NCBI RefSeq assembly: GCF_020091585.1
Contig: NZ_CP083583.1
Coordinates: forward strand, 744,001-808,000
Origin: Kovacikia minuta CCNUW1
GTDB taxonomy: Bacteria > Cyanobacteriota > Cyanobacteriia > Leptolyngbyales > Leptolyngbyaceae
Direction: 5' to 3'
Length of the DNA stretch: 64,000 bases
Part shown: positions 254 through 49,500 of the stretch, piece after piece
How positions within the stretch are numbered: position 1 is the stretch's first letter
How the letters are laid out: each line of letters starts with the position of its first letter
Notes under the pieces: model-generated
What the model was told of the DNA's origin: nothing
What the model saw: only the letters and a program-made list of their open reading frames with translations
The model's database searches: none
Made by a program: the position numbers and the translations under genes

Positions 254-1963
254 TTACCAAAAAGATGTTTCCAACTCTGCGTCTGCCATTTGAGGTTCAA
301 ATGTTTTGACGTTTGTTCCCTCTAAAACTTGATGTAGTTCTCTTGCTTTGGGCGAACTGTGAAGTAATTCGTAAAAGAGCTTGCTACTCGCATTTAAGCA
401 ACGACCCCGAATAAATTCATTGTCGTAGATGATACAATCTCCATCCCCCATTAATTTAGGGACTTGTGAACACCAGTAGGAATCATCGAAAATCATCTTC
501 GCTGCCTGTTCGGATGTTTTGAAAGCGACTTTGCTTCCAAATCCTGCCCTAATTGCAGGAGGCAAACTCATTTTCTGATCTGCATATTGGGCTGTTGCAA
601 TCACAGGCATTCCATAACACCTCCATTGCAAAATTGCATCGTCAATATACTTGCAGACCTTTTCTCCCAATACCTCCTCTCTTCTCTGAAACTCGTCGAT
701 AAGGATTGGATACCAGGGCATTGGAATACCTGATACCTTGTTGTAATCCTGAATTTTGTCTACATGGGCTTGCTCAAATAAATCGCTTCGACGCTTAACT
801 AAAGGAAGCAGAACTTCCTCGAACAACTTGAGTGCCTTGTCCTTAACTGAGGCATCTTTTGAAGTCAGAATTTCTCCTTCATGGAAGACCTCTGCTTTCC
901 CTAAGTCAACTACTCCCTTTGTCCAGGGACTTCCCTTTAACGGGGAGAGAGTTTGCCCATTCTTAAGATCGATATTTACAAAGAAACGAATATTTTTCCC
1001 GTATAGGTGGCTTAGTCCCAGGATGATTGTTCTTAGTCCGGTACTCTTCCCCTTGTTGGGCTGCCCAATCAATAGGGCACCAGAGGTCAAATCAATGTAT
1101 TTTCCATAGCCCTCTAAATCCAGCAGAAAGGGGGCTTTCAAATCATCCCAAATTTGAGGTTGGTAGTTCGGCAAACAGAAATCTACAGACACCCATTCTT
1201 CCCTTGGTTTAGGAATATGCAAAGTGAATCTGTTTCCGGGTAGCCGCTCAACTGCAACTTGCATATTCGGATCAAATCCCGAATCTGATAGAACTTCGGG
1301 GATACATCCGTCAATCATGCTGTACTGAAACCTGAGTGGCTTGAAAAAAGTCAAGCGATAATGCATTAGCCCTTTAGTACAGGCTGGAGGGATAAAATCT
1401 ATTCCCGGTAGTCTGGACTGAAAAGCCTTTGCCAATTGAAACCCTTTGACATCTAACTCGTTCTTAGAAGGAATTGGAGTCGTTTCTGTAATCGGTGTAG
1501 AAATCGGAACAGGAGCAGACTGGCTGGATTGAGTAGGTTGAATAGGAGTAACCGGAGTAACCGGAGTAACCGGAGTAACCGGAGTAACCGGAGTAACCGG
1601 AACAGCCGGAGATGGAGACAAGTATCCATACTCAATCAACTTCTGTTCAATCTGTCTAAATTCGTTCTGGACTACATCAATTTCCAATTTCAAATCTTGA
1701 CCCATAGAAAAGATTTCAGCCTGGTTCCCGTTTTCTACCAGGATTGAGAGGATTTTTTGCCTGATCACGATAATCCCAATTGCACTGGGGTTGAACCCGT
1801 TGCGTTGAGCAACAATCGGCAACTGACGTGCCATCTGAGGCAGTTCTTTTGTCCAGAGCTTGTTCGGGTCAAGTACGTTTAAGTTTTGAAGTAGAAGCTT
1901 CAGCTTCTCTACTTCGTCTTGGCTTGGCATTTCACTAAAGTTAAATAGGTAGGTATAGTCCAT
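254..1963 (-). CDS. FtsK/HerA-type P-loop ATPase (DNA translocase-like)
   Basis: A 569-aa ATPase. An N-terminal region (residues 1-125) without recognised domain is followed by a Pro-Val-Thr linker (about 120-145), a linker of about 40 residues and then the motor. Walker A is GQPNKGKS near residue 300 and Walker B PILIDE near 420. The late segment PPAIRAGFGSKVAFKT resembles the FtsK/SpoIIIE sensor region, and GDGDCI matches the FtsK 'GxGDML' strand. Such motors pump dsDNA for segregation, conjugation or packaging; which applies here is not evident. It has no transmembrane N-terminus of its own, but the two genes upstream encode short membrane proteins that could anchor it. The start overlaps the preceding gene by 55 bases, suggesting coupling. 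Confidence 0.85.
   Translation of the reverse strand: MDYTYLFNFSEMPSQDEVEKLKLLLQNLNVLDPNKLWTKELPQMARQLPIVAQRNGFNPSAIGIIVIRQKILSILVENGNQAEIFSMGQDLKLEIDVVQNEFRQIEQKLIEYGYLSPSPAVPVTPVTPVTPVTPVTPVTPIQPTQSSQSAPVPISTPITETTPIPSKNELDVKGFQLAKAFQSRLPGIDFIPPACTKGLMHYRLTFFKPLRFQYSMIDGCIPEVLSDSGFDPNMQVAVERLPGNRFTLHIPKPREEWVSVDFCLPNYQPQIWDDLKAPFLLDLEGYGKYIDLTSGALLIGQPNKGKSTGLRTIILGLSHLYGKNIRFFVNIDLKNGQTLSPLKGSPWTKGVVDLGKAEVFHEGEILTSKDASVKDKALKLFEEVLLPLVKRRSDLFEQAHVDKIQDYNKVSGIPMPWYPILIDEFQRREEVLGEKVCKYIDDAILQWRCYGMPVIATAQYADQKMSLPPAIRAGFGSKVAFKTSEQAAKMIFDDSYWCSQVPKLMGDGDCIIYDNEFIRGRCLNASSKLFYELLHSSPKARELHQVLEGTNVKTFEPQMADAELETSFW
1545..1598 (-). repeat. 9-bp tandem repeat encoding Pro-Val-Thr linker
   Basis: Six perfect head-to-tail copies of GGAGTAACC (plus-strand reading) and a seventh degenerate copy (GGAACAGCC, to 1607) inside the FtsK-like gene. 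The 9-bp unit keeps frame and encodes repeated Pro-Val-Thr, a rigid interdomain linker. Copy-number slippage would change linker length without breaking the frame. Confidence 0.9.
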
Positions 1964-3786: not shown

Positions 3787-4225
3787 AAAAGGATTTCGCC
3801 CATTCTTGCACCTCCTTCAAGTGATCTCTTTTTACAAAGAGATGAGGGCATTCCTGTCTGAGAATTTCCTCAGTCCTTTGATTGACCCTTCGATGAAAGT
3901 CTTTAATTTGTTCAGCTTTTAATCTGGCTACTACTTCTGCTGCTTGAAGAGATGAATCTTTTTCGCTTTCCAGATCGGATAAATTCTCAGCATAAGAACC
4001 AAGGCTATCTTTTGAACCCAACTCTCGAATTGAGTCCACTTGATTGCGGATCGAACGATCCGCTTCAATCATTTCAAATACGGTCTTATTATTTGATTCT
4101 GCAAAAGCTACAAATTCAGAGATAGCCTGTCTATTTGTGATTGGAATATTCAGGTATTTAGAAATAGCCTGAGCCTCTTCAGGTGTGGCTTGATGGTTTT
4201 TATCGATCGGGAATTTGTTCGTCAC
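3680..4225 (-). CDS. Hypothetical soluble protein
   Basis: 181 aa, mostly helical, acidic and Gln-rich, without membrane segments. Residues 70-115 look coiled-coil-like. A late segment has spaced Cys and His (ECPHLFVKRDHL ... FCERSGY) that may or may not bind metal. It overlaps the upstream HTH gene by 26 bases and the downstream gene by 107, so all belong to one transcript. No family recognised. Confidence 0.6.
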   Translation of the reverse strand: MTNKFPIDKNHQATPEEAQAISKYLNIPITNRQAISEFVAFAESNNKTVFEMIEADRSIRNQVDSIRELGSKDSLGSYAENLSDLESEKDSSLQAAEVVARLKAEQIKDFHRRVNQRTEEILRQECPHLFVKRDHLKEVQEWAKSFCERSGYKLPPAILGLPEGGSPDQKQLRPAESPTDS

Positions 4226-4508
4226 TTCTTAGCACTCCGTACTCTTTCAATTTGTGTTCAAGACTTCCATCAAACAGGGATTCAACAAATCTTTTTCGGG
4301 TAAATCCACCTTTTAGGTTGCACCACCCCCGGATTAGTCGAATCCAATCGAACAGGGAAGGGTCTTCCATTAAAGAAGCTCTAATGTTTAGAGCCTGCCT
4401 ATCCCTGTAAATAGTCTTGGGAGACACTTCCATTCGCTTTGCTAACTCCTCCCAGGTAGTAGGGATGGGTTGAGCTTCGCAATCGACAGATCTGCCTTCC
4501 TCTATCAC
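4200..4508 (-). CDS. Small helix-turn-helix protein, first gene of the operon
   Basis: 102 aa with a GTG start; AGGGGG lies about 11 bases upstream. Residues 18-42 (TWEELAKRMEVSPKTIYRDR) form a clear helix-turn-helix of the replication/transposase-like kind, where 'SPKTIYRD' would be the recognition helix. The rest is basic and Trp-containing. It is the promoter-proximal gene next to the 11-bp-phased TGGACA array, so it is the best local candidate to bind those repeats (inference). Confidence 0.7.
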   Translation of the reverse strand: MIEEGRSVDCEAQPIPTTWEELAKRMEVSPKTIYRDRQALNIRASLMEDPSLFDWIRLIRGWCNLKGGFTRKRFVESLFDGSLEHKLKEYGVLRSDEQIPDR

Positions 4509-4558
4509 TAAAATCTAACCCCCTTTTTATCCACTCAAAATCCATACTTCACTTTTCA

Positions 4559-4575
4559 ATGAGTATATCACTCAT
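4559..4575. promoter_or_regulatory. Operator-like palindrome ATGAGT-N5-ACTCAT
   Basis: Copy of the element-wide core ATGA-N9-TCAT, here with 6-bp perfect arms and a following CAAAA. It lies 51 bases upstream of the minus-strand operon and 10 bases before the first TGGACA unit. Read on the minus strand it contains TATACT, which could be a -10 box covered by the operator. Confidence 0.65.
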
Positions 4576-4584
4576 CAAAAAAAC

Positions 4585-4759
4585 TGGACAGGGAGTGGAC
4601 ACCCCCTGGACACCCTATGGACAGGACACTTAATTTAACTGGTAAATTTTGCTACATGCCAAGTTCTCAGTGTCCAGCAGGTGTCCACATAGACCAACTG
4701 GACATGTCCTGGACAGGTCTTGGACACGTACTGGACAAGCAGTGGACAGGTAGTGGACA
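4585..4759. repeat. Iteron-like array: twelve TGGACA units on an 11-bp period
   Basis: TGGACA starts at 4585, 4596, 4607 and 4618, then its complement TGTCCA at 4671 and 4682, then TGGACA at 4699, 4710, 4721, 4732, 4743 and 4754. Within each run the spacing is exactly 11 bp, about one helical turn, so all sites face the same side. The five bases between units vary. Arrays like this serve as replication origins (iterons), plasmid centromeres or multi-site operators. It occupies the gap between divergent transcription units, and no open frame runs through it. Confidence 0.9.
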
Positions 4760-4887
4760 GGTAAGACCCTGTTCGATCACTTTTTAATTCCTGAAATGCC
4801 CATTTTTCGTTCAGAACCCCCCAGAAAAAACCCTGTTTCCTGGACTAAACCCCAGAGGACTACCCCGGAAGTAAAGCCTAAGAATTG

Positions 4888-4935
4888 AAAATGTTCATCG
4901 GGATACAAAGTGATTTGTAACTTGATGAACATTTT
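4888..4935. repeat. Nested palindrome in origin-like region
   Basis: Outer arms AAAATGTTCATC and GATGAACATTTT are perfect 12-bp complements. Inside them sits a second perfect hairpin, TACAAA-GTGA-TTTGTA (4904-4919), with 4-base unpaired collars. The whole 48 bp can form one cruciform or RNA hairpin. There is no T-run matching a simple terminator beyond five T's inside the right arm. It lies 130 bp from the TGGACA array. Confidence 0.8.
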
Positions 4936-4994
4936 TCTAGGTAATACTTTGTCAGTTTTGTTCTCGACTTGTTCAATCTAGGGTGTCATAATCA

Positions 4995-5011
4995 ATGAAA
5001 GAATTACTCAT
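4995..5011. promoter_or_regulatory. Operator-like site ATGA-N9-TCAT
   Basis: ATGAAAGAATTACTCAT followed by CAAAAGAGG. An ATG inside this site could be read as a gene start, but the next in-frame ATG (5028) has a proper ribosome site, so I treat this as the operator/promoter of that gene. Confidence 0.6.
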
Positions 5012-5027
5012 CAAAAGAGGTAAGACC

Positions 5028-5324
5028 ATGCATGTCGTTTTTACAAACAACCCGGAAAGTCGTTGGAATCACCTGGATGTCAAAGACCCTTTGCGAAAAG
5101 AGTCCCTATCTTTAGGGAAACTACTCAAGAACGATCTCGAAGGACTTGGGACTTACTTGCTAGAAGTCGAGGTGACAGTCAAAATCCTAGACTACGTTCC
5201 AGTCGAAAGCGATGAGCCGGAGACCCCAGACGATCACCCTTCGCTTCAGCCAAACGCAGCAGATTTAGATTATCTGTTTGGTGAGTCAAACAATCATCAG
5301 CACGACCTCGAACGTACCCACTAG
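5028..5324 (+). CDS. Hypothetical protein
   Basis: 98 aa from the ATG at 5028, preceded by AAGAGGT at 6-7 bases. An upstream in-frame ATG at 4995 lies within the operator-like palindrome and is less likely. The first 60 residues form an alpha/beta-looking segment (VVFTNNPESRW, LLEVEVTVKILDYV), and the tail is acidic and Asn/His-rich. No family recognised. It is the first gene of the plus-strand side of the origin-like region. Confidence 0.6.
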   Translation: MHVVFTNNPESRWNHLDVKDPLRKESLSLGKLLKNDLEGLGTYLLEVEVTVKILDYVPVESDEPETPDDHPSLQPNAADLDYLFGESNNHQHDLERTH

Positions 5325-5384
5325 GGGACACTTAGGGGCACAGTAGGGGACAAAGGGGGACTTTAGCCGCCCCCTTTGGGGACA
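5322..5384. repeat. 11-bp-phased TAGGGGACA repeats plus G/C-rich hairpin
   Basis: TAGGGGACA begins at 5322 and 5344, with a variant TAGGGGCA at 5333, again 11 bp apart, and a further GGGGACA at 5378. Between the last two lies a hairpin with 8-bp arms (AAAGGGGG / CCCCCTTT). The GGACA core and the 11-bp period match the large array at 4585-4759, so the same protein may bind both. There is no T-run, so a terminator role is weak. Confidence 0.6.
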
Positions 5385-5431
5385 AATGGATCTTCAACCA
5401 ATACGCCACAAGTTAAAGAAGGACAATTCCA

Positions 5432-5872
5432 ATGACTCAACTACATGCGATCAATCAAGAGCAAAAACTGTATGTTTTAACATGTGGAGACGGATATACC
5501 TGCCTGGGTTTTGGTGTGGCTGCCCGTAAGGCGAAAGCTGTTGCGAAGTGGTTAAAACTCCCAATTCCTTCCAACTTAATCAATGAAGGTACTAAAGAGG
5601 GTTTTGCAGAATATCAGCAGATTATGTTGGCTGGTGCTGACCATCATGGTCGTACTGGAAAGCGTTGTGAGGCTGAACTTGTTCAACAGCTTAAAGGATT
5701 GGAAGGGCATTGGGTTTGGGTTCAAACCCATGATGAGGAGATTGAAATTTTCAAAGTCGGAAAGTCTACGGGATGGTTTCCCTGTCATTTGAAAATTACT
5801 CCTCCTGGCCTTTCAGGAGGAGATCCCATTTTTGAAACTTCTTTCAAACGTGTTGAATTACTGCTGAATTAA
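5432..5872 (+). CDS. Hypothetical protein
   Basis: 146 aa, with AAGAAGGA 8 bases before the ATG. Compact alpha/beta composition; Cys at positions 18 and 25 (CGDGYTC) and later RCEAELVQQL, HWVWVQTHDEE. Not recognised. It starts a run of small same-strand genes to 7410 that look phage/plasmid-like by size and packing. Confidence 0.6.
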   Translation: MTQLHAINQEQKLYVLTCGDGYTCLGFGVAARKAKAVAKWLKLPIPSNLINEGTKEGFAEYQQIMLAGADHHGRTGKRCEAELVQQLKGLEGHWVWVQTHDEEIEIFKVGKSTGWFPCHLKITPPGLSGGDPIFETSFKRVELLLN

Positions 5873-5876
5873 TGCA

Positions 5877-6305
5877 ATGAACCATTTCAATATCACAAGC
5901 TGCTTGCCTATCCCTCAGACTCCTTACCCCAGCACCCCGATCATTTACCACATGGAACGATCTATGCCTCAGAAGGCAAAAATGACCAAAGCAGAATTTA
6001 AGGCAATTGAACTCGAAAGCTGTGGCACACCAGCAATTTTCTATCGTGCTGATACCAGTAGACTTACTCGACATCGAAACCTCGCCTCAATCCATCGGAT
6101 TCTAAGATACCGATTTGATATTGAAACCGTGGAAGCAATCCGCTTTGGTGATTCCCCCAGAAAAGAAGGGGAAGTATTTATCACTTTCAAAAACGGGGAT
6201 ATGTACCGAACCGCATGGGCAAGCTTTGATCTAATGATGGAATGGATTGAAAAACGCTGTAAGTCGGCACCATTGATTTTGAAAACCGATGAAAACATAA
6301 TGTAA
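5877..6305 (+). CDS. Hypothetical protein
   Basis: 142 aa. The first ATG is 4 bases after the preceding stop (coupling), but the first 29 residues are Pro-rich and unconserved-looking, and an in-frame ATG at 5964 is a plausible alternative. From residue 60 there is an ordered domain (ETVEAIRFG ... FITFKNGDMYRTAW ... MMEWIEKRCK). No family recognised. Confidence 0.55.
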   Translation: MNHFNITSCLPIPQTPYPSTPIIYHMERSMPQKAKMTKAEFKAIELESCGTPAIFYRADTSRLTRHRNLASIHRILRYRFDIETVEAIRFGDSPRKEGEVFITFKNGDMYRTAWASFDLMMEWIEKRCKSAPLILKTDENIM

Positions 6306-7059: not shown

Positions 7060-7410
7060 ATGGAAGAATCTTCAACTTCAAGACAGGCACTTGTCGATTG
7101 TCTGATTCAAGCAATTGAAAAAGATGATTATCAGGGTGCCAGGAACACTCTAGACACAATCTTCGAGCAGAATTTTCCTGTTTTGGTTGAAGTTGCAACC
7201 CTTCCTAAGACCCGTTACAGAGTGTTTATCTGGGTGTTTCAATATATTCGACGGAATAGAGTTGCACCCACACTTAAGGAGATTGAGAGGGCATTAGACC
7301 TTACTCAATCTTCTGTTCAGAATGCTCTTGCAAAGCTGAAAATTGACGGGTATCTAACCTGGGAGAAAGGAAGTCCCCGGTCAATCAGAATTCTTCGGAC
7401 TCGTATTTAG
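7060..7410 (+). CDS. Winged helix-turn-helix regulator
   Basis: 116 aa. Residues 1-40 are a helical hairpin like the 50-aa protein at 6343. Residues 50-116 form a LexA/MarR-like winged helix: RYRVFIWVFQYIRRNRVAPT, then LKEIERALDLTQSSVQNALA as helix-turn-helix and LKIDGYLTWEKGSPRSIRIL as the wing. It lacks any protease or ligand domain, so it is probably a simple DNA-binding regulator. Targets unknown; two palindromes lie immediately downstream at 7453-7481. Confidence 0.75.
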   Translation: MEESSTSRQALVDCLIQAIEKDDYQGARNTLDTIFEQNFPVLVEVATLPKTRYRVFIWVFQYIRRNRVAPTLKEIERALDLTQSSVQNALAKLKIDGYLTWEKGSPRSIRILRTRI

Positions 7411-8534: not shown

Positions 8535-9848
8535 TTAATCAGGCTGAAACTGCAAAACAGCTAATCCGGTTTGGGTTTTGATTAAGTCAACAAGCTTCAG
8601 GGTAGGGTATTCTTTGAGCCAGTGACCAACTGCCTGTTGTTCCCCGTATCGATAGAAATCGTCTATCAGGATAAAGGTATTTGCTGAAAGGAATGGTTTT
8701 AACTGGGACAGAACTGGATACCGACTGGTGAGATGGAGATCTCCTGGAGGGCCGTCTACTAGCAATAGATCGATTGTCGGAAGACTGGCTTTCGAGATGT
8801 CATACCAGGGAATCGAATTGATTAGCCTCAGTGGGCAGAAAAGAACACTTTCCGAAGAAAACCCTTTCTCACTAAGACGGCTGATGATTGATTCGTACCA
8901 GACTGAATCATGCTCTAAAGAGCGAAAGTCTTCAATCACTCCTTTTTTCTGAGCCTCTGCAAACATTAAGGTTGATTCACCTGTACCCAGTTCCACAACT
9001 GTTTTGATCTCGTTCTCCTGAATAAAGTCTAATATCCACTGGAGAGTATCTTCATCAAGTGCCCATGCGCTTGACTTGGGAGCAGAAGGTTTAGCAAGTT
9101 TGTCAATTAAAGTAAAACGAGTAAAGGTCTGAACCTCAAGTTCAATATTATTCATCCCTCTACGCTTTAGAGCCTGACGCACCGACCTGGCTGTAAACTC
9201 AATCTGTTGAAATCGTTTCTGGAAAGTTATGCAATCCTTATGGTGACGGCAAAAATACAGGGGCTTTTGCAGATGATAAAAGCCTGTCACCTCTGACAGT
9301 CTGATACAGAAATCCACATCCATACAGCAAAGACAGGTTGGATCGACTCCCCCAGCAGCCTCGTAAGCTTCTCTCCGAATTAATCGAAACTGGTAAGTCA
9401 TGAACTGAACCAGAATCTTTTCCCTGGAATAAGGGGTTTGTGTAACCTTCCCATATTCCTTAAATGAGCCATCCTCATTGGTGACAATGTAATCGGTGTA
9501 GACAACGCCTACATCCTGGGAAAGGCGATCTAAAAGCCCCACTGTATCCTCAAGGCATGTTGGAGCTAAGAAATCGTCGCTATCTAACCATCCAATATAT
9601 TTTCCCGTACAGTGCTTATAGGCTTCAACTAAAGCGGGTGCCCTGCCAACATGCTCAGACTGAATCACCTTGATTCGGAAATCTTGACGGGCATATTCTA
9701 GACAAATATCTAGAGATTTATCCGTTGAACCATCATCGAAAAGAATCAACTCCCAGTCTTCAAAGGTTTGACCAAGAGTTGATTCAATGCAGTCGGGAAG
9801 ATATGCAGCCCGATCAATGAATGTTGTGATCAGGGAAATTTTTGACAC
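8535..9848 (-). CDS. Glycosyltransferase family 2 fused to a class I methyltransferase-like domain
   Basis: 437 aa, GTG start, no clear ribosome site. Residues 1-215 are a GT-A fold: ISLITTFIDRAAYLPDCIES, FDDGSTDKS (nucleotide-sugar site), GKYIGWLDSDDF (metal-binding DxD) and an acceptor-side MDVDFCIRL. Residues 245-437 are a Rossmann-type SAM domain: VVELGTGESTLMFAEA is motif I, and LLLVDGPPGD and FILIDDFYRYG are later strands. Such fusions decorate polysaccharides or glycoproteins. The gene is followed on the same strand, upstream, by two unknowns and a giant secreted protein that could be a substrate (inference). Confidence 0.85.
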   Translation of the reverse strand: MSKISLITTFIDRAAYLPDCIESTLGQTFEDWELILFDDGSTDKSLDICLEYARQDFRIKVIQSEHVGRAPALVEAYKHCTGKYIGWLDSDDFLAPTCLEDTVGLLDRLSQDVGVVYTDYIVTNEDGSFKEYGKVTQTPYSREKILVQFMTYQFRLIRREAYEAAGGVDPTCLCCMDVDFCIRLSEVTGFYHLQKPLYFCRHHKDCITFQKRFQQIEFTARSVRQALKRRGMNNIELEVQTFTRFTLIDKLAKPSAPKSSAWALDEDTLQWILDFIQENEIKTVVELGTGESTLMFAEAQKKGVIEDFRSLEHDSVWYESIISRLSEKGFSSESVLFCPLRLINSIPWYDISKASLPTIDLLLVDGPPGDLHLTSRYPVLSQLKPFLSANTFILIDDFYRYGEQQAVGHWLKEYPTLKLVDLIKTQTGLAVLQFQPD

Positions 9849-26040: not shown

Positions 26041-26869
26041 CTGCCCACCCGCGCAAAAGGTGAAGTCGGGTATTTGCTTCGGGTAAAGCCATAATTTCTG
26101 AAGGGGTCATTCCCAGGGTTTTAGCAATTTGCCCTCCTGACATCTTCACATCCCCAGGCACCCCCCGATAGCCCGGATATAGACCCGTATAACGCTCGCT
26201 CATTGCAAGACGTTCTACATTCTGCTGATTGAGTGTATGAATTCGATCTTCAAGACCGTCAATTTTTTGACTCAAATAGCCCTGCTTTGCAGGGGAAGCA
26301 TTTTGCATTTGGGATCGGGCTGATTGGAGTTGAGTTTTAAGGATTGAGGCTGTATCGGGATTATTAACCGTCATGTCCCATAGATGCTGACGATAACCGG
26401 GGGCGTTACTCAAATTGCCAAAAGTAAGAGTTGGAAAGGTTGCATCTCCTCCCTGTAACTCTCGATTAACTCTTCTAGAAAAGAACTGAGGGATTCCGTA
26501 TTCCTGGGGTAAAACACTTGTCCTTGTTCCCAATGCATCAGTCCCAGTTAACCCCTGCATTCCAGCCGCTCTAGGGTCAACAGGAGGACGGATTAACCCT
26601 GTACTACGTTCTGCAATGTGACTTCCCATTCTGCTCTGTGGGTAGCCCTGTGGGTAAGAGGATTGTATGTCTCGAAGAATCCTGTCATCACTAATCCTTG
26701 GAACCTTGAAATTTCTTACTGCCCGCTGAACAGAGAATGCATCCATCGCAGAAGGAGGAATATTTCCACTGGTTCCCCCTGTCGCAAGCCAATTTTGAAT
26801 CTCTTGAAAGGAAGCGGATCTACGTCCGGTTGATTGAAAAAAAGCTCGGCGCTGTTCGGGGGTGACCAT
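25997..26869 (-). CDS. Hypothetical protein, partner of the 456-aa gene
   Basis: 290 aa of similar composition (Arg/Gln/Ser/Gly-rich). RRAFFQSTGRRSASFQEIQN at the start; QSARSQMQNASPAKQGYLSQ and KIDGLEDRIHTLNQQNVERL look coiled-coil-like. Ends in the overlap with the downstream gene. These two form an isolated minus-strand pair between plus-strand operons. Not recognised. Confidence 0.6.
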   Translation of the reverse strand: MVTPEQRRAFFQSTGRRSASFQEIQNWLATGGTSGNIPPSAMDAFSVQRAVRNFKVPRISDDRILRDIQSSYPQGYPQSRMGSHIAERSTGLIRPPVDPRAAGMQGLTGTDALGTRTSVLPQEYGIPQFFSRRVNRELQGGDATFPTLTFGNLSNAPGYRQHLWDMTVNNPDTASILKTQLQSARSQMQNASPAKQGYLSQKIDGLEDRIHTLNQQNVERLAMSERYTGLYPGYRGVPGDVKMSGGQIAKTLGMTPSEIMALPEANTRLHLLRGWADGKGLSVSGFEPDS

Positions 26870-26886
26870 AATTAAATATGCTGAGA

Positions 26887-26903
26887 ATGAAATAATTACT
26901 CAT
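26887..26903. promoter_or_regulatory. Operator-like site ATGA-N9-TCAT
   Basis: ATGAAATAATTACTCAT followed by CAG. It lies 18 bases beyond the start of the minus-strand pair and 60 bases before the plus-strand gene at 26964, so it may control both directions. Confidence 0.65.
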
Positions 26904-26963
26904 CAGATCACTCACCAATCAATTCAATTCAATTCTACCTATCCAAACAAACGAGGAATAGAT

Positions 26964-27320
26964 ATGGCTAAACTGTCCCAGGAAGAAAAAGAACGTATTA
27001 TGCAGCTTCACAAACAAGAACTTCACCCCAGCGTGATTGCGCAAAGGGTTGGTTGTTCCAAGGAAACGGTTCGCAATGTGATCCGAAACAATGGGGAGTC
27101 AAAACACTTTTACTTCTTTCAGGCCCCGGATGGGACAATCCACAGGACTTCCAACGTTACAGACTTTTCTATCAATCAAAACCTCGAAAGCAGATACCTC
27201 TACAGCCTAAACAGCGGAAGCATAATCACCTATAAAGGATGGAGCAAAGCCACAGAAGAAGAATGGATTCGGCAAAACTCTCAAAATTCCCCTGCTGAAG
27301 TTACTCATCTTGACGAGTAA
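26964..27320 (+). CDS. Helix-turn-helix protein (Mor/resolvase-like HTH)
   Basis: 118 aa from the ATG at 26964, with GAGGA 6 bases upstream; a longer frame from 26862 would translate through the operator-like site. Residues 3-40 (LSQEEKERIMQLHKQELHPS, VIAQRVGCSKETVRNVI) are a tri-helical HTH like those of transposases and resolvases, without a catalytic domain. The rest (SKHFYFFQAPDGTIHRTSNV) is beta-rich and unrecognised. Probably a regulator. Confidence 0.7.
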   Translation: MAKLSQEEKERIMQLHKQELHPSVIAQRVGCSKETVRNVIRNNGESKHFYFFQAPDGTIHRTSNVTDFSINQNLESRYLYSLNSGSIITYKGWSKATEEEWIRQNSQNSPAEVTHLDE

Positions 27321-36890: not shown

Positions 36891-37376
36891 CTAGGCTCTA
36901 GTTCCGGGTTCTTTAATAACTTCTTCTTTGAATTCTTTCATAAGACGATTGGCTATATTAAACAATAATCTATACAGAGAAAAAACTGGCAGAACTTCAA
37001 TTAATTTCAGGTAATCTTCCAGTCCAGGTTCAGGCTTGGGGGCAGTAGATGGTAAGACTGAAGGATCTGTACCGTCTAGAAAAGCTCGAAGCTCCAGGAG
37101 TGTTAGACCCCTAGCTGCGGCAATCTTCTCAAGGTCTGACCTCTTTATGCCATTGGGTTCAGCAATGTCTCCAACCATCCATCCTCTTAGGGATGGCTGA
37201 GAGATGTTGAGCCTTGAGGCAAGACTCCTCTGAGAAGAGGCATTCAGACGATAAGCAACCTGCTCAAGAACAATGATCAACCTTTGCTGGTCTGGAGTCC
37301 TTCCTTCAAATTCTGGCTTAGACAAACCTGGAAACCCCTTTCGAGGTTCCTCCAATAAAGCATTCAAACCTTTCAT
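36891..37376 (-). CDS. XRE-type helix-turn-helix repressor candidate
   Basis: 161 aa. Residues 40-95 form an HTH: LNASSQRSLASRLNISQPSL is helices 2-3, then RGWMVGDIAEPNGIKRSDLE, AARGLTLLELRAFLDG. The second half is helical with hydrophobic faces (YLKLIEVLPVFSLYRLLFNI) and could dimerise. It is transcribed divergently from the gene at 37584, with an operator-like palindrome between (37526-37542). It is therefore one of two candidates for the protein that binds the element-wide sites. Confidence 0.75.
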   Translation of the reverse strand: MKGLNALLEEPRKGFPGLSKPEFEGRTPDQQRLIIVLEQVAYRLNASSQRSLASRLNISQPSLRGWMVGDIAEPNGIKRSDLEKIAAARGLTLLELRAFLDGTDPSVLPSTAPKPEPGLEDYLKLIEVLPVFSLYRLLFNIANRLMKEFKEEVIKEPGTRA

Positions 37377-38172: not shown

Positions 38173-38236
38173 CCACCCAATTGGCAATCAAGTTAATGAG
38201 GAAGATGTCTCATTTCCATCGCCCATCGAGTTAATA

Positions 38237-38307: not shown

Positions 38308-41300
38308 GTGACTCTGATCCAAAATCTTTCTGACAGGCTAGTAGACTCGATTGAATCTGGACATAACCAGGAAAAAATAGTTTCTGAGGATCGTCATGAG
38401 TGGAGTCTGTCTTGCCTATGCGGAGGAAACTCACTGAAGGTTGTAAAGAGCGGCAATAAAGCCGGAACCTTTTACAACTTTTGCTGTGAATCAATCCACT
38501 CGATTGACGAAATTAGAAACTATCTCCTTCCTGTGAATCACAATCCAGCTACTACTATAGCAAACCCAGGGAAAAAAAGAATCATCACTCCCGGTAATTC
38601 CACAAAAAGAACCAGGAAGAACACTACAGGTAGTGTGGGGACAGAAGTGGAGATACCAGATTTCAACCTATTCTTACTAACAACTGAAGATTTGCAAATT
38701 AATCCCGTTGTCTATGATTCCGGTTTTGACACCAGAAAAGGAGCAACTAAAATATCTCGATTCCCCTACCCAGATGATCGGCGGATAGATCGAATTGACT
38801 TTTTAGAGTTTCAAGATGCCCCTAAGAAGTCCGATAGAAGAGATTTCTACCACTGGCATCAAGCGAATAAAGATGGAACTCTTCCAATCTTCAAAGGTAA
38901 AAGGCAGATCGGAACAAGAAGGGTTCGATCAGGAGACTGGGTTATGGGTAAGGGGGAAGACCCCTGGAAAGCCTATCGGATGGATGAAGTTGAACGGAGC
39001 ATCGGAAAAAAAGATAGGGATGCTCATGCCATTGTTCTAATTCAAGAAGGAGAAAAGTGTGTTGAATATGCGCGAAACAATCTACTACTACCCTCGATTA
39101 CCTGGGCAGGAAGTAGTTGGAAGAATGACAGGGAAATTAGAAATACAGCGATCTCATTTCGAGAGATGCGATTGGTTGGACTTTTCCTTCCAGACTTTGA
39201 CCAGGCAGGAGCGGGTAAGGGAGAGGCTGTAAGACAAATTTTTGCTGAAGAAGGGGTTTGGGTTGGAATTCTTGATCCTGAGATTCTAGCGGGATGTCCA
39301 CTAGAGAAAGCAGATGACTTAGTTCAGATAGTTGAAAAGATAAAGGAGCAGGCAAAAGTGGGTGAAAAAGATTGGGGTGAATTGTTTGTTGAACGGTTTA
39401 ATACTTCAGTTGTGGAGGCAACCCAAAGAGCTAAAACGGTAAGAGAGAATTTGGAGGAGGTTGTTAAGAACTCCCCAGAAAACACCGATCAAGTTGGAGG
39501 TCATCCAGAGGTTCCCTATCGTCCACCTGGGGCTAAACGACTGGCAGAGCAGATTGCTGAGGATGTTGAGCAGTATCTTAAGTGGGACTTAAAGCGTTCT
39601 TGCTGGTGGCAATATGACCGGAACAAGTTTATCTGGGAGGTCGTGGACGAATTTGACATCTACGAAATGATCACCAGAGAAGGGGATCGGCTGGGGTGTG
39701 CATTAACAGCAAACTTTCTTAAAAACACAGCCCTATTTTTGAAAGTCCTTTGTCGAATCAAAGAGCTTTCTACAGACCTGGATCTAATCCCCTTTGAGAA
39801 TGGAGTTTTCAGCACCCGATCAAACAAATTCCTACCCCATTCCCCCTTCAACTTTCTGATCTGGAAACATCCATTCCCCTTCACTCCTTTTGAGGGTAAA
39901 AAAAAGGAAGACTTGATTAGCGAATGCCAACCAATCTGGGATTGGATGATTGAATCGGTTGGCAAAACACCAGAGGATGATAGTCTGGTTTATCCTCTGG
40001 TCGCATTCCTGTCAGCCGTTCTCAGAAGACAGACTTACCTGCAACGGTTTCTTGAATGTATTGGGCCTGCACGGTCGGGAAAAGGGACTTTCATCCGATT
40101 AGCAGAGGCTTGTGTTGGGCGTAGACGAACCTCATCAACGTCTTTCAAATCCCTGGAAGAGGGTTCATTTGAAATCGGCAAAGTCTTGGATGCCCATTTA
40201 AGCGTTATCTCCGATGCGGAACGATGGGCAGGGGAAGGCACGACTTTCAAATCAATTATCGGGGAGGATAATACTCCTCGGTCAAGAAAATACGTGCAGT
40301 CGGAAGTAGGGGAGTCTGCTCCTGCTGTGGGCATGATTATTGTTGCTGGAGAACAGTCTCCCGGTGCGGGAGATTCCGGGGGGATAGACAAGAGACGGCT
40401 TACGATCCCATTCCTGAAGCCTGTCGCAGAGGAGAGAAGGCGCAATCTGATCAAAATCAATCATGCAGGACAAATTGAAGGAGAGTTCGCCCCTTATGTT
40501 TCTGCTTTCATCTCCCTGTGCCTCTCGTTTAGTGATGAGGAGATCAGGAAGTACGTCCTTGAAACTAGCAAGACAGTTCCCCGAATTGCAGAGATCAAAG
40601 CTCAGGCATTGATTGAGTCCGATCCGCTGGCAAATTTTTTAGATCGGTGCTGCTATTGGTCGGATGAAGTTGACCGGAATGGAATCGCCAGATTAAAGAC
40701 CCCAATGGGATCAGCCCTCACCAAAGAAGAGGATGAACTATCCCCCAAAAGACTCTATCCTCTTTATCGGTTGTTTTGCCTCAACGAAGGGTATAAACCG
40801 ATTGCCGGGAATACCTTTGGTCGAAATCTAGAGAACTTCCTCAACAACCATCTGGGATTGAAAGTGAAGCGTGTGCGGCATACCGATGGCACCACTTACA
40901 TGCATCACCTGGGAATTAGACATCAGGGGCTTGAGGCTCCTGCCATTATCACTGACCTGTATGCCAAAGGACTCCAACAACCGGAACCAGAATCATCGGA
41001 AAAAGAAATAGAGACAGACAAATCTACGATCGCATCTTCAGATCGTTCGTCCGAGGAACTTTCGGGGAACTTTGAGCTACCCCAGGGGAATTCAAACCCT
41101 TACGTAGGCGGAACTCTGTCTACTTTACTTACTTTCTCAGAAGATCGAGAGAATTTGACAGATACGAACGGACATGAGATTTCTTTTTCCGATGATCGTT
41201 GTTTTGGTGATAGTGGAGTTTACGAGGCAGAAAGTAGCGAAAGTTTCTCAAGTTCCGCCACAGAGGGGTTTTCGGTCAATCAGAGTTCGTCAGAGTTAGA

Positions 41301-41652
41301 AATAGTTGATCAGGAATGGGGAGAGAGTATGCCTATTGCCTATACGGGGGGAGACATTAAAGTAGGTTCGCTTGTCTTGATTAAAGGGGCAGCGCAATGG
41401 ATTAGGGCTTATAACGGTGTCATTTCCACCACACTCCCTTCAAAAAGCGTTCCCTACTTTCTTTTCAGTAAAGATTCCATTCCTGTTTCGGAGATGAGCC
41501 AGAACTTAGTTAACGATTTCTATCGTCCTTTGAGAGTCCTCCGAATTAGCAAGGACGGCACAATGCTTCAGCTAATTAGCCCCAGGAGCCAACGTATTTC
41601 TTTATTCTCTGTAGATGACATTTGTGATGTCATGCCAGAAGAACGAGGGTAA
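38308..41652 (+). CDS. Primase-helicase, SF3 (phage P4 alpha/D5-like)
   Basis: 1114 aa, GTG start with AGGAGGT 5-6 bases upstream. N-terminal Cys-rich fold (CLCGG ... NFCCESIH, residues 35-60) may be a degenerate zinc finger. A TOPRIM-like region follows (residues 245-345: AIVLIQEGEKCVEYARNN, RLVGLFLPDFDQAGAG). The helicase core is SF3: Walker A GPARSGKGT (about 586), Walker B HLSVISDAERW (about 633), then EDNTPRSRKYVQ and a RRLTIPFLKP arginine-finger segment. A D5-type winged helix follows (YPLYRLFCLNEGYKPIAGNT). After a 100-residue Ser/Glu-rich linker there is an extra domain of about 110 aa (residues 1003-1114, IKVGSLVLIKGAAQWIRAYN) that I do not recognise. Likely the element's replication initiator and helicase. 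Confidence 0.85.
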   Translation: MTLIQNLSDRLVDSIESGHNQEKIVSEDRHEWSLSCLCGGNSLKVVKSGNKAGTFYNFCCESIHSIDEIRNYLLPVNHNPATTIANPGKKRIITPGNSTKRTRKNTTGSVGTEVEIPDFNLFLLTTEDLQINPVVYDSGFDTRKGATKISRFPYPDDRRIDRIDFLEFQDAPKKSDRRDFYHWHQANKDGTLPIFKGKRQIGTRRVRSGDWVMGKGEDPWKAYRMDEVERSIGKKDRDAHAIVLIQEGEKCVEYARNNLLLPSITWAGSSWKNDREIRNTAISFREMRLVGLFLPDFDQAGAGKGEAVRQIFAEEGVWVGILDPEILAGCPLEKADDLVQIVEKIKEQAKVGEKDWGELFVERFNTSVVEATQRAKTVRENLEEVVKNSPENTDQVGGHPEVPYRPPGAKRLAEQIAEDVEQYLKWDLKRSCWWQYDRNKFIWEVVDEFDIYEMITREGDRLGCALTANFLKNTALFLKVLCRIKELSTDLDLIPFENGVFSTRSNKFLPHSPFNFLIWKHPFPFTPFEGKKKEDLISECQPIWDWMIESVGKTPEDDSLVYPLVAFLSAVLRRQTYLQRFLECIGPARSGKGTFIRLAEACVGRRRTSSTSFKSLEEGSFEIGKVLDAHLSVISDAERWAGEGTTFKSIIGEDNTPRSRKYVQSEVGESAPAVGMIIVAGEQSPGAGDSGGIDKRRLTIPFLKPVAEERRRNLIKINHAGQIEGEFAPYVSAFISLCLSFSDEEIRKYVLETSKTVPRIAEIKAQALIESDPLANFLDRCCYWSDEVDRNGIARLKTPMGSALTKEEDELSPKRLYPLYRLFCLNEGYKPIAGNTFGRNLENFLNNHLGLKVKRVRHTDGTTYMHHLGIRHQGLEAPAIITDLYAKGLQQPEPESSEKEIETDKSTIASSDRSSEELSGNFELPQGNSNPYVGGTLSTLLTFSEDRENLTDTNGHEISFSDDRCFGDSGVYEAESSESFSSSATEGFSVNQSSSELEIVDQEWGESMPIAYTGGDIKVGSLVLIKGAAQWIRAYNGVISTTLPSKSVPYFLFSKDSIPVSEMSQNLVNDFYRPLRVLRISKDGTMLQLISPRSQRISLFSVDDICDVMPEERG

Positions 41653-41690: not shown

Positions 41691-41705
41691 TAGTGAGTGA
41701 TTGTT

Positions 41706-42008
41706 ATGCATGAAGCACTGAGGTTTATAAGGGTTTGCCATAACCTTTCCCAAAAGGAGTTAGCAGAAAAGCTTGAAGTTTCTAAATCCTATCTCTCGGA
41801 AATTGAGTCAGGGAAAAAGCTTCCTACGCTTTATGCGCTTAAAAACTACTCAGAATTTTTTGAACTTCCACTCTGGTCAATCCTGTTTTTTGTCGAGAAT
41901 TTCGATCAAGGGATTGAACTAGAACCGTTGCAGCCATTTCTGCCTCCGAGAATCTTTTCTCTTTTGTGTATCGACAAGACGAATCTGAAGAACTGGGACA
42001 AACAGTAG
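41706..42008 (+). CDS. XRE-family transcriptional regulator
   Basis: 100 aa from the ATG at 41706 (a GTG 9 bases earlier is possible). Residues 3-60 are a complete Cro/cI-type HTH: EALRFIRVCHNLSQKELAEK, LEVSKSYLSEIESGKKLPTL, YALKNYSEFFELPLWSILFF. No cleavage or ligand domain, so a small repressor of the SinR/Cro kind. An operator-like palindrome sits 15 bases upstream. It is the best candidate to read the element-wide palindrome, next to the XRE protein at 36891. Confidence 0.85.
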   Translation: MHEALRFIRVCHNLSQKELAEKLEVSKSYLSEIESGKKLPTLYALKNYSEFFELPLWSILFFVENFDQGIELEPLQPFLPPRIFSLLCIDKTNLKNWDKQ

Positions 42009-45312: not shown

Positions 45313-46416
45313 TTATATTTCTCTCCTTTTCATTGCAGCAATCCATATCTCTTTAGCATCGGAAGCCTTCAGCCATCGTTGATAGGTCTTCCGATGTTCG
45401 TCTACTGAGTGTCCCATAAAAGATGCCATTGCTCTTTCCGGGATACCTGCATGGATTCCTCGGATGGCATAACTATGACGGAGATTGTAAGGAGGAAAAC
45501 CCAAATAGCTTTTCTTCCCAAGCATTTGGGTTACTCTTTGTCCTACATAATGATGGGATCTCTTCTCAACCTGTGGAAGCCTATCCACTTCCCAGACCTT
45601 CCACTGCTCTGCCCATTCTGGGAACAGAGGAGCAACTTCCCTTTCTCCAGTTTTCCCTTCGAGAACATGGCAAATATAATCTCCAGAGTTCTCGACTTCA
45701 CAGAAGAAAGCTTCATGGGGTCGAAGTCCATAGACTGCCAGTAGAGAAAATACATATTTCCACCGAGCAACTTCTATCCTTCCCTCTCTAAATTCATCCC
45801 AAGTTTTAATAACTTCACCATCTGAGAGAATGTTCCTGGCTGAAACCTTGCTCCGACTCCAGTTCCCCCGATAGGGTTTTAGATCAATCTCTATTCCTGC
45901 TTGTCTTGCCAATCTCCCCATTGCATCACAACATGACTTCCTGTGCCTGCTATTCTTTGGAGTCTGCTCAATAATTTCCAGGATTGATTTAATAGATAAA
46001 GGCAGGTCAGGGTTTAGCTTTTTATAGAAATAAAGATAATGGTCTTCCCAGGTTGTCTGGGCTATTTTGTCCTGGTATAGTTTTTCCTTTTTAAGGGACT
46101 CTATCCAGTGACTTGCTGGATAACCTGATTTCTCTGGATGAATAGATTTGTCCCAGTCATCCCAGTTAAAGCGCTGTTGATTCTTCGCGTAATGCATCTC
46201 CCAGGCTTTTGCTTCTGCCCACTGCAAGTTAGCCTCATCGCAGGTACATCCCAGCGACACCTTGTATTGTTTTTTAATCCCGATCAACTCTTTATGGGGA
46301 AGTGTTGCCCGAAGATAAAGCCGATTCCCTTGCTGCTCCACCCGAACATCACACATCCCCGATTGCAACCGAGCGTTGCATGACTCGACCGTAAATGTTT
46401 TCCTTCCCATAACCAC
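45313..46416 (-). CDS. Tyrosine-type site-specific integrase
   Basis: 367 aa from GTG (ATG two codons on, at 46410, is as likely). N-terminal AP2/SAM-like arm (residues 1-150), then the catalytic core: LAVYGLRPHEAFFCEV (first Arg), CHVLEGKTGE (Lys), PPYNLRHSYAIRGIHAG (Arg box; Tyr in place of the usual first His, as in many cyanobacterial integrases), FMGHSVDEHRKTYQRW (His and nucleophile Tyr). Mediates integration/excision of the element. Its upstream side faces the chromosomal DNA, where an inverted repeat (46423-46463) may be part of the attachment site. Confidence 0.9.
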   Translation of the reverse strand: MVMGRKTFTVESCNARLQSGMCDVRVEQQGNRLYLRATLPHKELIGIKKQYKVSLGCTCDEANLQWAEAKAWEMHYAKNQQRFNWDDWDKSIHPEKSGYPASHWIESLKKEKLYQDKIAQTTWEDHYLYFYKKLNPDLPLSIKSILEIIEQTPKNSRHRKSCCDAMGRLARQAGIEIDLKPYRGNWSRSKVSARNILSDGEVIKTWDEFREGRIEVARWKYVFSLLAVYGLRPHEAFFCEVENSGDYICHVLEGKTGEREVAPLFPEWAEQWKVWEVDRLPQVEKRSHHYVGQRVTQMLGKKSYLGFPPYNLRHSYAIRGIHAGIPERAMASFMGHSVDEHRKTYQRWLKASDAKEIWIAAMKRREI

Positions 46417-46463: not shown

Positions 46464-46583
46464 TATCTCGTTTTTCTTCTGGTTTTTATACTTATTTACG
46501 TCATATTGCATTTTAGAGTTTTGCCCTAAAAAGCCTTCTCTACTTCTTTTCCGACGATCTATCAACTCAAACGTTCACCGTTT

Positions 46584-49500
46584 ATGTATACGGACAAATC
46601 CTGTATGAGACGCGACGCGACCGGCAAGTTTGTGAACAACTGGAATTCAGAGGCAAAGCAACGAGTCAGCGTATCTCTAACCAGAACAGCATGGCGATCG
46701 CTGGATCAGGAAGCGCAAAAACGGGGGGTTTCTCGTTCTGAAGTGATTGAACAGTTTGCTCGCAGTCTTGAAGCCGAGCATCCTAATCGGGAAATGCCTG
46801 CTACGACCCAAACCATTGATCGCACAGTAGCAACCATTTTAGAAAGTATTACGGATGCCTTTGTTGCCTTCGATCTCGACTGGCACTACACCTATGTCAA
46901 TCATGCTGCGGCTCAAATTTTGCACAAACAGCCAGAAGAATTAATTGGCAAGCACGTCTGGAATGATGTTTTTCCCGAACTGGTGGGGGGAGTTGCCTAT
47001 CAAGCCATGCACCGGGCGATCGCAGAGCAAGTTCCCGTCGCATGGGAAGAATTTGGGGAGCCGATTCAATATTGGCTGGAAGTGAATGCATATCCTTCAG
47101 CCGCAGGACTCGCCGTTTATTTTCGGAATGTGACGGAACGCAAGCAAGCAGAGGCAGAACGGGAACGATTGCTGCAAGAATTGGAACGGGAACGTACCCA
47201 ATTTAAAGCGGTTTTACAACAAATGCCAGCGGGTGTTTTGATTGCTGAAGCAGCATCTGAAAAGTTAGTGCTGGCAAACGAACAAGCAAAGAAAATTTTA
47301 GGATACGACTTTGAAGAGTTCCATGAATTAGAAGACTATGAACCCATTACTCCGTTTCACGCGTTTCGCTCTGATGGGCAAATTTACGCACCGGATGCAT
47401 ATCCCCTGCCGCGATCGCTGAGGACGGGTGAAGTCATCGCTAACGAGGAATTGGAACTACGCTACGAAGATGGCAGTCGGACCATTATTGCGGTCAATTC
47501 CAGCCCAATCTTAGACAAGCAAGGACAAATCCTGGCAGCGGTTGTCATTTTTCAAGATATTACGGAGCGTCAGCAAACCGAAATACTGCTCCAACAGGCA
47601 AAGGGAGGCATTAGAAAACCAGCAGAAATGGTTAGAAATGGTGCTGGATTTAATGCCAACACCAATGGTGTTTATTGAACCGGAAACAGCAAAAGTTACG
47701 TTCGCGAACCGGATTGCCAATGAATTAGCCGGGGGAGACTTACCCAAAAACAAATCGTTGGATGAGTATGCAGAGGCTTATTACTGCACAGACGCGAACG
47801 GCGATCGCATTCCAACGGAACGCCTGCCAGCGGTGCTAATTGCTAAAGGAGAACGGTTAGTAAACTATGAGATGAATTGGTATACTCCTGGCGGTATTCG
47901 CTCAACGCTTTGCTGGGGAGAAATATTGCCAGCCATGTATGGCCATCCTGCGATCGGCATTGGCATGTTTCAGGATGTAACTCGGCTCAAGCAAATTGAG
48001 GAGAACTTGCGGCAAATCGAAGAACGCCTACAGCTTGCCCTCTCATCAGCCCAGATGTTTGCCTGGGATACAGATTTAATTACCCAGCAGGTGGTGTGTT
48101 CTCCTAATGCAACAGAGATTTGGGGGTTTCATCGTGGGTTATCAGACGCCTTTCACGCCTTAATGCACCCAGACGATGTGCAACTAGTTCTGCAAGCGGT
48201 AGAGCAGGCAATTGCGGGAGATTCCTGCTTCTCCTACCAATATCGGGTGATGAGTCCAGATGGTAAGACCCGCTGGCTAAAGAGCCAGGGACGTGTTTAT
48301 CGCAATGAAGCTGGACGGGCGATTCGGATGATTGGGGTCTCAGCCAATATCACTGAACTGAAGCAGATTGAAGCCGATCGGGATCAACTCCTAAAACAGG
48401 AACAAGCAGCCCGACGCCTGGCTGAGAATGAGCGCCAGCGACTAAGAGATATTCTCATGCAAGTGCCCGCGATGTTTGCTGTACTATCAGGTCCCGATCA
48501 CGTCTTTGAACTGGCGAACCCTAAGTTTCTCAGCGTGTCTGGGCGTTCTCAAGAAATTATTGGCAAGACTGCACGGGAAGCCTTTCCTGAGATGGAAGGG
48601 CAGGGATATTTTGAGATTCATGATCATGTCTATCAAACTGGAGACATTGTTCGAGGTGATGAATTCCTGTCCCGTTGGGATGTTAATGGAGATGGCAATT
48701 TAGTTGAAGGATTTTTTAATCTTGTATTTCTGCCATTGAGGGATATTGACAGTTGTATTGACAGTGTTTTAATTCATGGAATTGAGGTTACTGCCCAGGT
48801 TCAAGCCCGGCAGCAGGCAGAAGCTTTACTTCAAGAACTACAGAAAAAAGAAAAGCAACAACAGTTTTTGATCGAACTGAATGATGCAATCCGTGCCATT
48901 CAAGATTCACAGGAGATTATGTGGCATGTGGTTAGCGCCACAGGACAGCATTTTAATGTGACACGCTGTACCTATGGTGAAATTGATGCCACACAGGAAT
49001 ATGTCATGGTCGATCGCGATTATTGCAATGGTGTGATCAGTGTGGCGGGCAGCCATCGGATGGATGCCTTCGGTCCTGCGCTAATTGCAGAGTTAAGGCA
49101 AGGCAAAACCATTGCGGTGGATGATGTCGATCGCGATCCTCGCACGGCTGGCTCAGGAGCTGCGGCATTTGATGCAATTCAAACAAAATCTCTTCTCTGT
49201 GTTCCGCTCGTAAAACAAGGTCGATTTGTTGCATTGTTTTTATTGCATCATGTTGCTCCTCGCCAGTGGACAGAGGACGATGTGGAATTGATGGAGCGAA
49301 TCGCGACAAAAACCTGGTTAGCGGTGGAGCGATCGCGCGCGGAGGCAGAACTACGGGAAAGCGAGGCTCATCTGCAACTGGCACTCAAGGTTGGACGCAT
49401 GGGAACCTGGGATTGGAATATGCAGATGGACACCATCACCTGGTCTGACGGACAATTTTCCATCATGGGGCTACAAGCTGGCGAACACCCCCCCAGCTAT

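Follow-up and report, generated by a model that had tools for sequence, protein, structure and literature searches.

We analyzed a window of 64,000 nucleotides from the cyanobacterium Kovacikia minuta CCNUW1, which spans positions 744001-808000 of the 1,207,795-bp contig C2 in a genome of three contigs and 8.56 Mb. The window carries an array of the hexamer TGGACA that is intergenic, lies between two divergent operons inside a prophage, and is a candidate for the replication origin of that prophage. The leftward operon comprises an orphan gene for a helix-turn-helix (HTH) protein, genes for proteins with membrane segments (recognized by eye) and a gene for an FtsK-like ATPase, while the rightward operon consists of small genes. 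Coordinates are collected in Table 1 and are those of the window unless preceded by C2.

The array comprises ten direct and two inverted TGGACA units spaced exactly 11 bp apart within each run, and all twelve lie where an earlier note on this DNA had placed them. Conservation is confined to a core of exactly six bases, and the 5-bp spacers differ from one another (mean pairwise identity 0.20 for set 1, 0.46 for set 2). The word itself is not enriched, as the window holds 37 copies against 37.5 expected. What exceeds chance is the ordered run and not the frequency of TGGACA: with all hexamers and all periods of 9-24 bp considered, the longest same-period run reached six units in the array, whereas 60 dinucleotide-preserving shuffles of the window gave runs of two (58/60) or three (2/60), bearing out the earlier claim of a regularity beyond chance. 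Within the 8.56-Mb genome, the three-copy TGGACA pattern is confined to the array, where all six overlapping matches fall. The prophage outside the array contains 57 TGGACA words against 41.8 expected from base composition, and these are unclustered, with never more than two exact copies per 150 bp.

The earlier note had also stated that no frame runs through the array. Every minus frame is indeed interrupted by a stop within it, but one plus frame stays open from 4563 to 4787 (74 codons from stop to stop) and holds no recognizable gene. An RNA element was ruled out by the absence of any match at E ≤ 0.1 in an Rfam search of 4000-5600, and a minisatellite because the spacers of the array differ, unlike the tandem repeats of loci L007-L009 and of many genome-contig matches.

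Table 1. Features of the window and of the prophage that extends upstream of it
Feature	Position	Strand	Remarks
Prophage	C2:699064-790593 (window 1-46593 + upstream)		91.5 kb; 16-bp att-like cores
FtsK/SpoIIIE-like ATPase	254..1963	-	leftward operon
Orphan HTH protein, 102 aa	4200..4508	-	first gene of leftward operon; candidate regulator or binder
Least stable 60-mer of 4000-6000	4524..4583	.	nearest-neighbor sum 68.5; alternative melting site; adjoins set 1
DnaA-box-like TTATCCACT	4527..4535	+	weak; loose pattern matches 8 places in 64 kb
Operator-like quasi-palindrome	4556..4580	.	upstream of leftward operon; loose TGATGA-N9-TCATCA family member
Iteron set 1, TGGACA x4, 11-bp period	4585..4623	+	unit starts 4585, 4596, 4607, 4618
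A+T-rich gap separating the sets	4624..4670	.	47 bp; A+T 0.64 overall, 0.77 over 4628-4657; candidate melting site
Inverted TGGACA x2, 11 bp apart	4671..4687	-	unit starts 4671, 4682
Iteron set 2, TGGACA x6, 11-bp period	4699..4759	+	unit starts 4699, 4710, 4721, 4732, 4743, 4754
Second loose operator-like copy	4992..5016	.	abuts promoter-like site 4964-4992 of rightward operon
Degenerate satellite	5322..5384	+	end of first rightward gene; GGGACA at 5325, 5347, 5379; TAGGGG x3 at 11-bp period from 5322
Strict palindrome copies	31788, 37524, 42562 + five upstream of window
Loose palindrome copies	4556, 4992, 16824, 38234		many other looser places in prophage
P4-family D5 primase-helicase	38308..41652	+	C-terminal Pox_D5 domain; proposed initiator
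Integrase-like gene	45313..46416	-	Pfam Phage_integrase E 2e-5, narrowly missing its cut-off; two related prophage regions carry homologues
attR-like core CCGTTTATGTATACGG	46578..46593	.	partner copy C2:699064

Prophage setting and neighboring sites

A 16-bp direct repeat, CCGTTTATGTATACGG, occurs at C2:699064 and C2:790578, 91.5 kb apart. The right repeat lies immediately outside the integrase-like gene, and the prophage is inserted at the start codon of a sensor-kinase-like gene, which this repeat overlaps; the kinase label comes from a weak PHROG match. Between the repeats we found a terminase large subunit (37% identity over 94% to the Synechococcus cyanophage S-EIVl), an endolysin-like protein, an SSB, an exonuclease and a D5-type primase, together with a portal-like and several tail-like proteins that we named by eye, going by their size, position and sequence. 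Judged by this content, the setting of the array is an integrated temperate prophage of ~91.5 kb in a cyanobacterial replicon, with the array near its middle, ~49.5 kb from the left end. A new plasmid replicator was ruled out because the array sits in an integrated prophage and not in a plasmid backbone. Upstream of the prophage, C2:665000-683000 holds a cluster of transposase-like genes (recognized by eye) that includes repeated copies of the same open reading frames (ORFs).

The terminase was found at E ≤ 1e-40 in 3/318 other genomes, the third time on an 11.4-kb contig. The other two genomes, G580 and G035, belong to the same class, have long DNA flanking the terminase, and carry homologues of the terminase, the integrase and the portal-like protein.

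The array lies between divergent operons and beside the HTH gene, as the earlier note had it; the nested palindrome that was counted as part of this setting (4556-4580) is not peculiar to the array but dispersed in the prophage. Its strict form, the 21-bp palindrome TGATGA-N9-TCATCA, has eight copies in the 91.5-kb prophage, all with a nine-base spacer when five to eleven bases were allowed, against a chance estimate of 0.04 (from 4^12 and seven spacer lengths). These dispersed palindromes are probably operators of a prophage repressor, and the family is separate from the TGGACA array and not part of it. The loose copy at 38234 lies 74 bp ahead of the D5 gene. The promoter-like site at 4964-4992 is not evidence alone, since shuffles yield 1.5 such sites.

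The 60-mer nearest-neighbor sum has a window mean of 79.5 (standard deviation 4.6), and its minimum at 4524, in a 60-mer that contains the DnaA-box-like word, is nearly tied with those at 4108 and 4903. Terminator-like hairpins that point outward occur at both array edges (4589-4608, minus strand; 4754-4775, plus strand), with six terminator-like sites in the array region against 1.7 expected, and the intergenic region of the array also contains a 22-nt inverted repeat with a 4-nt loop at 4888-4935. In the leftward operon, searches for homologues of the FtsK-like protein gave weak matches alone, with at most 34% identity over long stretches, and its best NCBIfam similarity was to type VII secretion ATPases, far under the cut-off. 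A perfect 9-bp tandem repeat of 6.3 copies in its gene (1545-1601) codes for a VTP repeat.

Hexamer arrays in other phages

We scanned viral contigs for three TGGACA copies at 11 bp and, as a control, for the reversed word ACAGGT. Each scan gave at least 120 loci, and what we compare is the kinds of place in which they lie, not their totals. The array fell within an ORF matching a replisome-organizer profile at 88/120 listed TGGACA loci and at 4/120 listed ACAGGT loci. This contrast is a qualitative one: some of the same ORFs had served to train the profile, many of the contigs appear to be related, and the counts are accordingly not independent. Spacers were variable at 83 of the 120 listed TGGACA loci, and 19 variable-spacer arrays among the listed loci lay outside organizer ORFs.

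PHROGs gave replication names to five of six representative loci ("replication initiation O-like," "DnaD-like helicase loader" for two, "replisome organizer," and "replication initiation protein"), the sixth, L118, whose array has no organizer ORF, belonging to a family without function. Pfam recognized Phage_rep_org_N in two of eight representatives (L108 and L055), and the remaining six matched no replication family. L078, L053 and L118 are among the 19 outside organizer ORFs; the array of L078 lies inside an ORF that PHROGs names as a replication initiation protein of another family. Across L030-L149, in phages of several kinds, in-ORF TGGACA-N5 arrays read CPxxVQxxS in the protein and may reflect a general origin word. 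Separately, variable-spacer TGGACA arrays of 3-4 copies (L053:7989-8027, L118:4623-4650, L228 and L246) adjoin a repeated hairpin-like sequence, GTACAGTAGA. Those of L053 and L118 lie just 3' of a small gene and are perhaps late-activator sites; we take this gene to be ArpU/Alt-like, although the L118 family is the one to which PHROGs assigns no function.

According to the introduction of PMC8965321, the origins of TP901-1 and Tuc2009 are direct-repeat regions inside the organizer genes, each bound by the organizer that its gene encodes. We ran a detector for hexamers in at least three copies, with a period of 9-24 and spacers unlike each other, on stretches from ten organizer phages, seven of which had been picked as relatives of a TGGACA-array protein. 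An 11-bp array lay inside rep in 5/10, with CAACCA in Tuc2009, GGAACC in r1t, and TGTCCA or a one-base shift of it in three streptococcal phages. TP901-1 had one with a 15-bp period inside rep, 4/10 had no array inside rep, and the sole array outside rep had a 24-bp period (L480). In Tuc2009 and r1t, with 14 kb examined in each, the array inside rep was the one 11-bp hexamer array, and the Tuc2009 record annotates its rep gene as containing the origin. As these sequences indicate, phage origins built on hexamers at 11 bp are already known. The 11-bp period, which had been called unusual and a possible mark of a new replicator, is for this reason no sign of one: hexamers at 11 bp are common inside phage organizer genes, those of Tuc2009 and r1t included. 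A literature search at the level of titles and the starts of abstracts turned up no paper that treats TGGACA arrays as phage origins, which does not prove absence. A coding remnant of an organizer gene was ruled out by the stop in each minus frame inside the array and by the lack of an organizer N-terminus among the prophage ORFs.

The three-copy TGGACA pattern occurred in 4/144 relatives, counting the genome analyzed here, with identical spacers in the other three, and the backward-read control in 5/144; by this comparison the pattern is not enriched among relatives. The control matches (G049, G059, G075, G100 and G142) are probably tandem repeats, and G059 and G075 appeared again in the phylum scan. 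One of 385 other genomes of the phylum had four TGGACA copies when up to two mismatches were allowed, and there they formed a pure tandem repeat. A scan of genome contigs for the TGGACA pattern returned at least 120 matches and does not exclude related arrays elsewhere. Among the variable-spacer TGGACA arrays found in this analysis, the one described here is the largest.

A proposed origin weighed against its rivals

On balance, we consider it likely that the array is the replication origin of the ~91.5-kb temperate prophage. An initiator would bind each hexamer, one protomer per turn and on one DNA face, and the two iteron sets would assemble into a nucleoprotein core. This core would melt the gap, or else the weak DNA at 4524-4583, and a helicase would then be loaded there. 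The likeliest candidate for this initiator is the D5 protein, with the HTH protein second. P4 alpha binds repeats spaced 10-11 bp at the P4 origin, and the C-terminal Pox_D5 domain could let the D5 protein act in the same manner; alternatively, another phage protein, perhaps the 102-aa HTH protein, could be the binder. By this analogy the origin may be bound by the D5 protein, an assignment that we put forward tentatively.

In a single comparison, the D5 protein (1114 aa) aligned with P4 alpha over residues 413-859 (26% identity, E 4e-24). D5_N and Pox_D5 domains are common to both proteins, and the D5 protein matched the NCBIfam model of the P4-family primase below the cut-off. The P4 record places type-1 repeats at 9310, 9320 and 9331, on the opposite strand at 9353, and then at 9396 and 9406; the origin lies between divergent genes, neighbors within its clusters are 10-11 bp apart, and a gap of 83% A+T precedes the last two repeats. 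Relatives of the D5 protein at E ≤ 1e-10 were present in 8/143 other genomes, and none turned up when viral contigs were scanned for D5. Among the listed viral TGGACA loci, L044 alone bears a D5 ORF, a number that does not exceed the control; its array lies ~0.6 kb before that ORF, whose protein is 99.8% identical to that of a Streptococcus satellite phage.

Adjacency is the one link between the HTH protein and the array, because the HTH gene is an orphan. A search of 143 other relatives at E ≤ 1e-3 found no match to the protein; in 385 other genomes of the phylum, weak matches at E ≤ 0.1 were found in 22, with a best E of 0.009 and many in stop-containing frames. Its best match among plasmids had an E of 0.5, and the viral contigs held no relative, with three stretches matching a pattern. 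The predicted structure of the protein alone was too poor for a fold search, with a mean pLDDT (predicted local distance difference test) of 63.6. Further small HTH proteins are encoded at 7060-7410, 26862-27320, 36891-37376 and 41697-42008.

A number of observations weigh against an origin, or against the D5 protein as its initiator. The repeat of P4, GGTGAACA, is unlike TGGACA; the gap of the array is less A+T-rich than that of P4 (64%, or 77% over a 30-mer, versus 83%), and the least stable stretch adjoins the array and does not lie inside it. The array is 33.5 kb from the D5 gene, compared with ~2.3 kb between the P4 origin and the start of alpha. No 11-bp array was found in 13 stretches around D5 relatives from eight other genomes (one 391-base stretch left out), and a D5 ORF accompanied 1/120 listed TGGACA viral loci versus 5/120 for the control, a count that omitted ORFs running off the 3' end, an omission that can only lower the control figure. 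The dependence among the organizer counts noted above belongs here as well, as does the position of the array: wherever an 11-bp array was found in the organizer phages it lay inside rep, whereas here it is intergenic, with the operators of the divergent operons on either side, a placement that would suit a regulator site. No replisome organizer or DnaD-like loader was detected among the prophage ORFs of at least 50 aa (two profiles, best E 0.19), and the organizer profiles found none at E ≤ 1 in the whole genome, in a search that shows little as it had no positive control. The cumulative GC skew of the prophage reaches its minimum near C2:758-760 kb, ~10 kb to the right of the array, and there is no switch at the array itself. 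In the G580 and G035 prophages, BLAST at 1e-4 gave no match to the HTH, FtsK or D5 proteins, and there is no comparable array; these prophages do share the terminase, integrase and portal-like homologues, so that the array, by sequence comparison, travels with an unshared module that includes both candidate binders, HTH and D5. Finally, PMC6092414, in its discussion, describes the origin organization of phage-inducible chromosomal islands (PICIs) as common to no other known bacterial element, and for that reason a likeness in layout to PICIs is not membership.

The earlier note had named an origin, a centromere or a master operator. The origin is the best supported of the three, as an origin of phage type, and the master operator remains its main rival, although we regard it as rather unlikely. 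In this reading, a regulator encoded by the phage (the HTH protein, perhaps, or a late activator) would bind the phased hexamers cooperatively and control both the leftward operon (FtsK, membrane and lysis genes) and the rightward one. The intergenic position between divergent operons beside the HTH gene would suit such a role, as would the operator-like sites that flank the array at 4556 and 4992, the promoter-like site at 4964-4992, and the variable-spacer arrays just 3' of a small gene in L053 and L118. However, twelve sites across 175 bp are many for an operator, and the flanking quasi-palindrome, with its eight strict copies in the prophage, is already a good operator candidate, whereas TGGACA is clustered only at the array.

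A centromere of the ParMRC type, with 11-bp iterons and a ParR-like binder serving a plasmid-like state of the prophage, is very unlikely. The repeats of parC are 11 bp long. Its architecture is alike in that, according to PMC4949242, parC of plasmid R1 has direct repeats in two sets, as the array does, and the fragment with iterons 1 and 2 used in an electrophoretic mobility shift assay measures 22 bp, in keeping with that length. Yet the ten array-adjacent proteins match no Pfam partition family, ParM- and ParR-like families included, no actin- or tubulin-like protein was found among the other prophage proteins scanned against Pfam (part of the ORFs), and the element has an integrase and lies between att-like repeats; the centromere is therefore unsupported. 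More remote still is a loading or transfer site for the FtsK-like ATPase as a DNA translocase, on the pattern of the clt/TraB system of Streptomyces plasmids, which the presence of FtsK-like, small HTH and membrane-segment genes in one operon adjoining the array would favor, but for which there is no close FtsK homologue for comparison, the best similarity being the distant one to type VII secretion, and no nicking or conjugation gene was recognized in the scans made.

If the array is indeed an origin, it provides a candidate origin for a cyanobacterial prophage, and TGGACA every 11 bp with varying spacers would offer a simple sequence rule for spotting phage origins in unrelated hosts; as a plasmid-iteron curiosity it would be ordinary, since the 11-bp period has phage precedents. 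One could go further and suppose that TGGACA at one-turn spacing is an old shared phage origin word, here detached from any organizer gene and recognized by a novel kind of initiator, whether the orphan HTH protein or a P4-family helicase acting through its winged-helix end, which would define a separate class of phage origin; we consider this a long shot.

Comparison with known systems

Classic iteron plasmids carry iterons of 17-22 bp. The array resembles them in its direct repeats, its A+T-rich stretch and the nearby DnaA-box-like site, and departs from them in its period of 11, in having six conserved bases only, and in that no plasmid Rep gene was recognized adjacent to it. The origins of organizer phages are closer in design, with a hexamer core, an 11-bp period and variable spacers, and many phages have the very same hexamer. 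The loci listed with organizer ORFs have 3-5 exact copies per run, in many of them as two runs 66 bp apart, compared with 12 copies in both orientations in the window. From its sequence, the array appears to belong, as a variant, with the known iteron origins of phages; its copy number, its intergenic position and the lack of a recognizable organizer gene set it apart.

P4 and the PICIs differ from the element described here in being satellites, like the Staphylococcus aureus pathogenicity islands (SaPIs), whereas the window holds a full-size prophage with a terminase. The array also has another iteron sequence and more iteron copies than the origins of P4 and PICIs, and while a PICI origin lies immediately 3' of rep, the array is not next to its D5 initiator candidate. 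According to the Fig. 2 legend of PMC6092414, PICI origins "always" contain an AT-rich region with an iteron set on each side, and both P4 and the PICIs share with the window a D5-type primase-helicase within the element and two iteron sets around an A+T-rich gap (4585-4623 and 4671-4759 in the window). The likeness extends further for the P4 origin, where, as in the array, the repeats are 10-11 bp apart, one of them is inverted, and the whole is intergenic.
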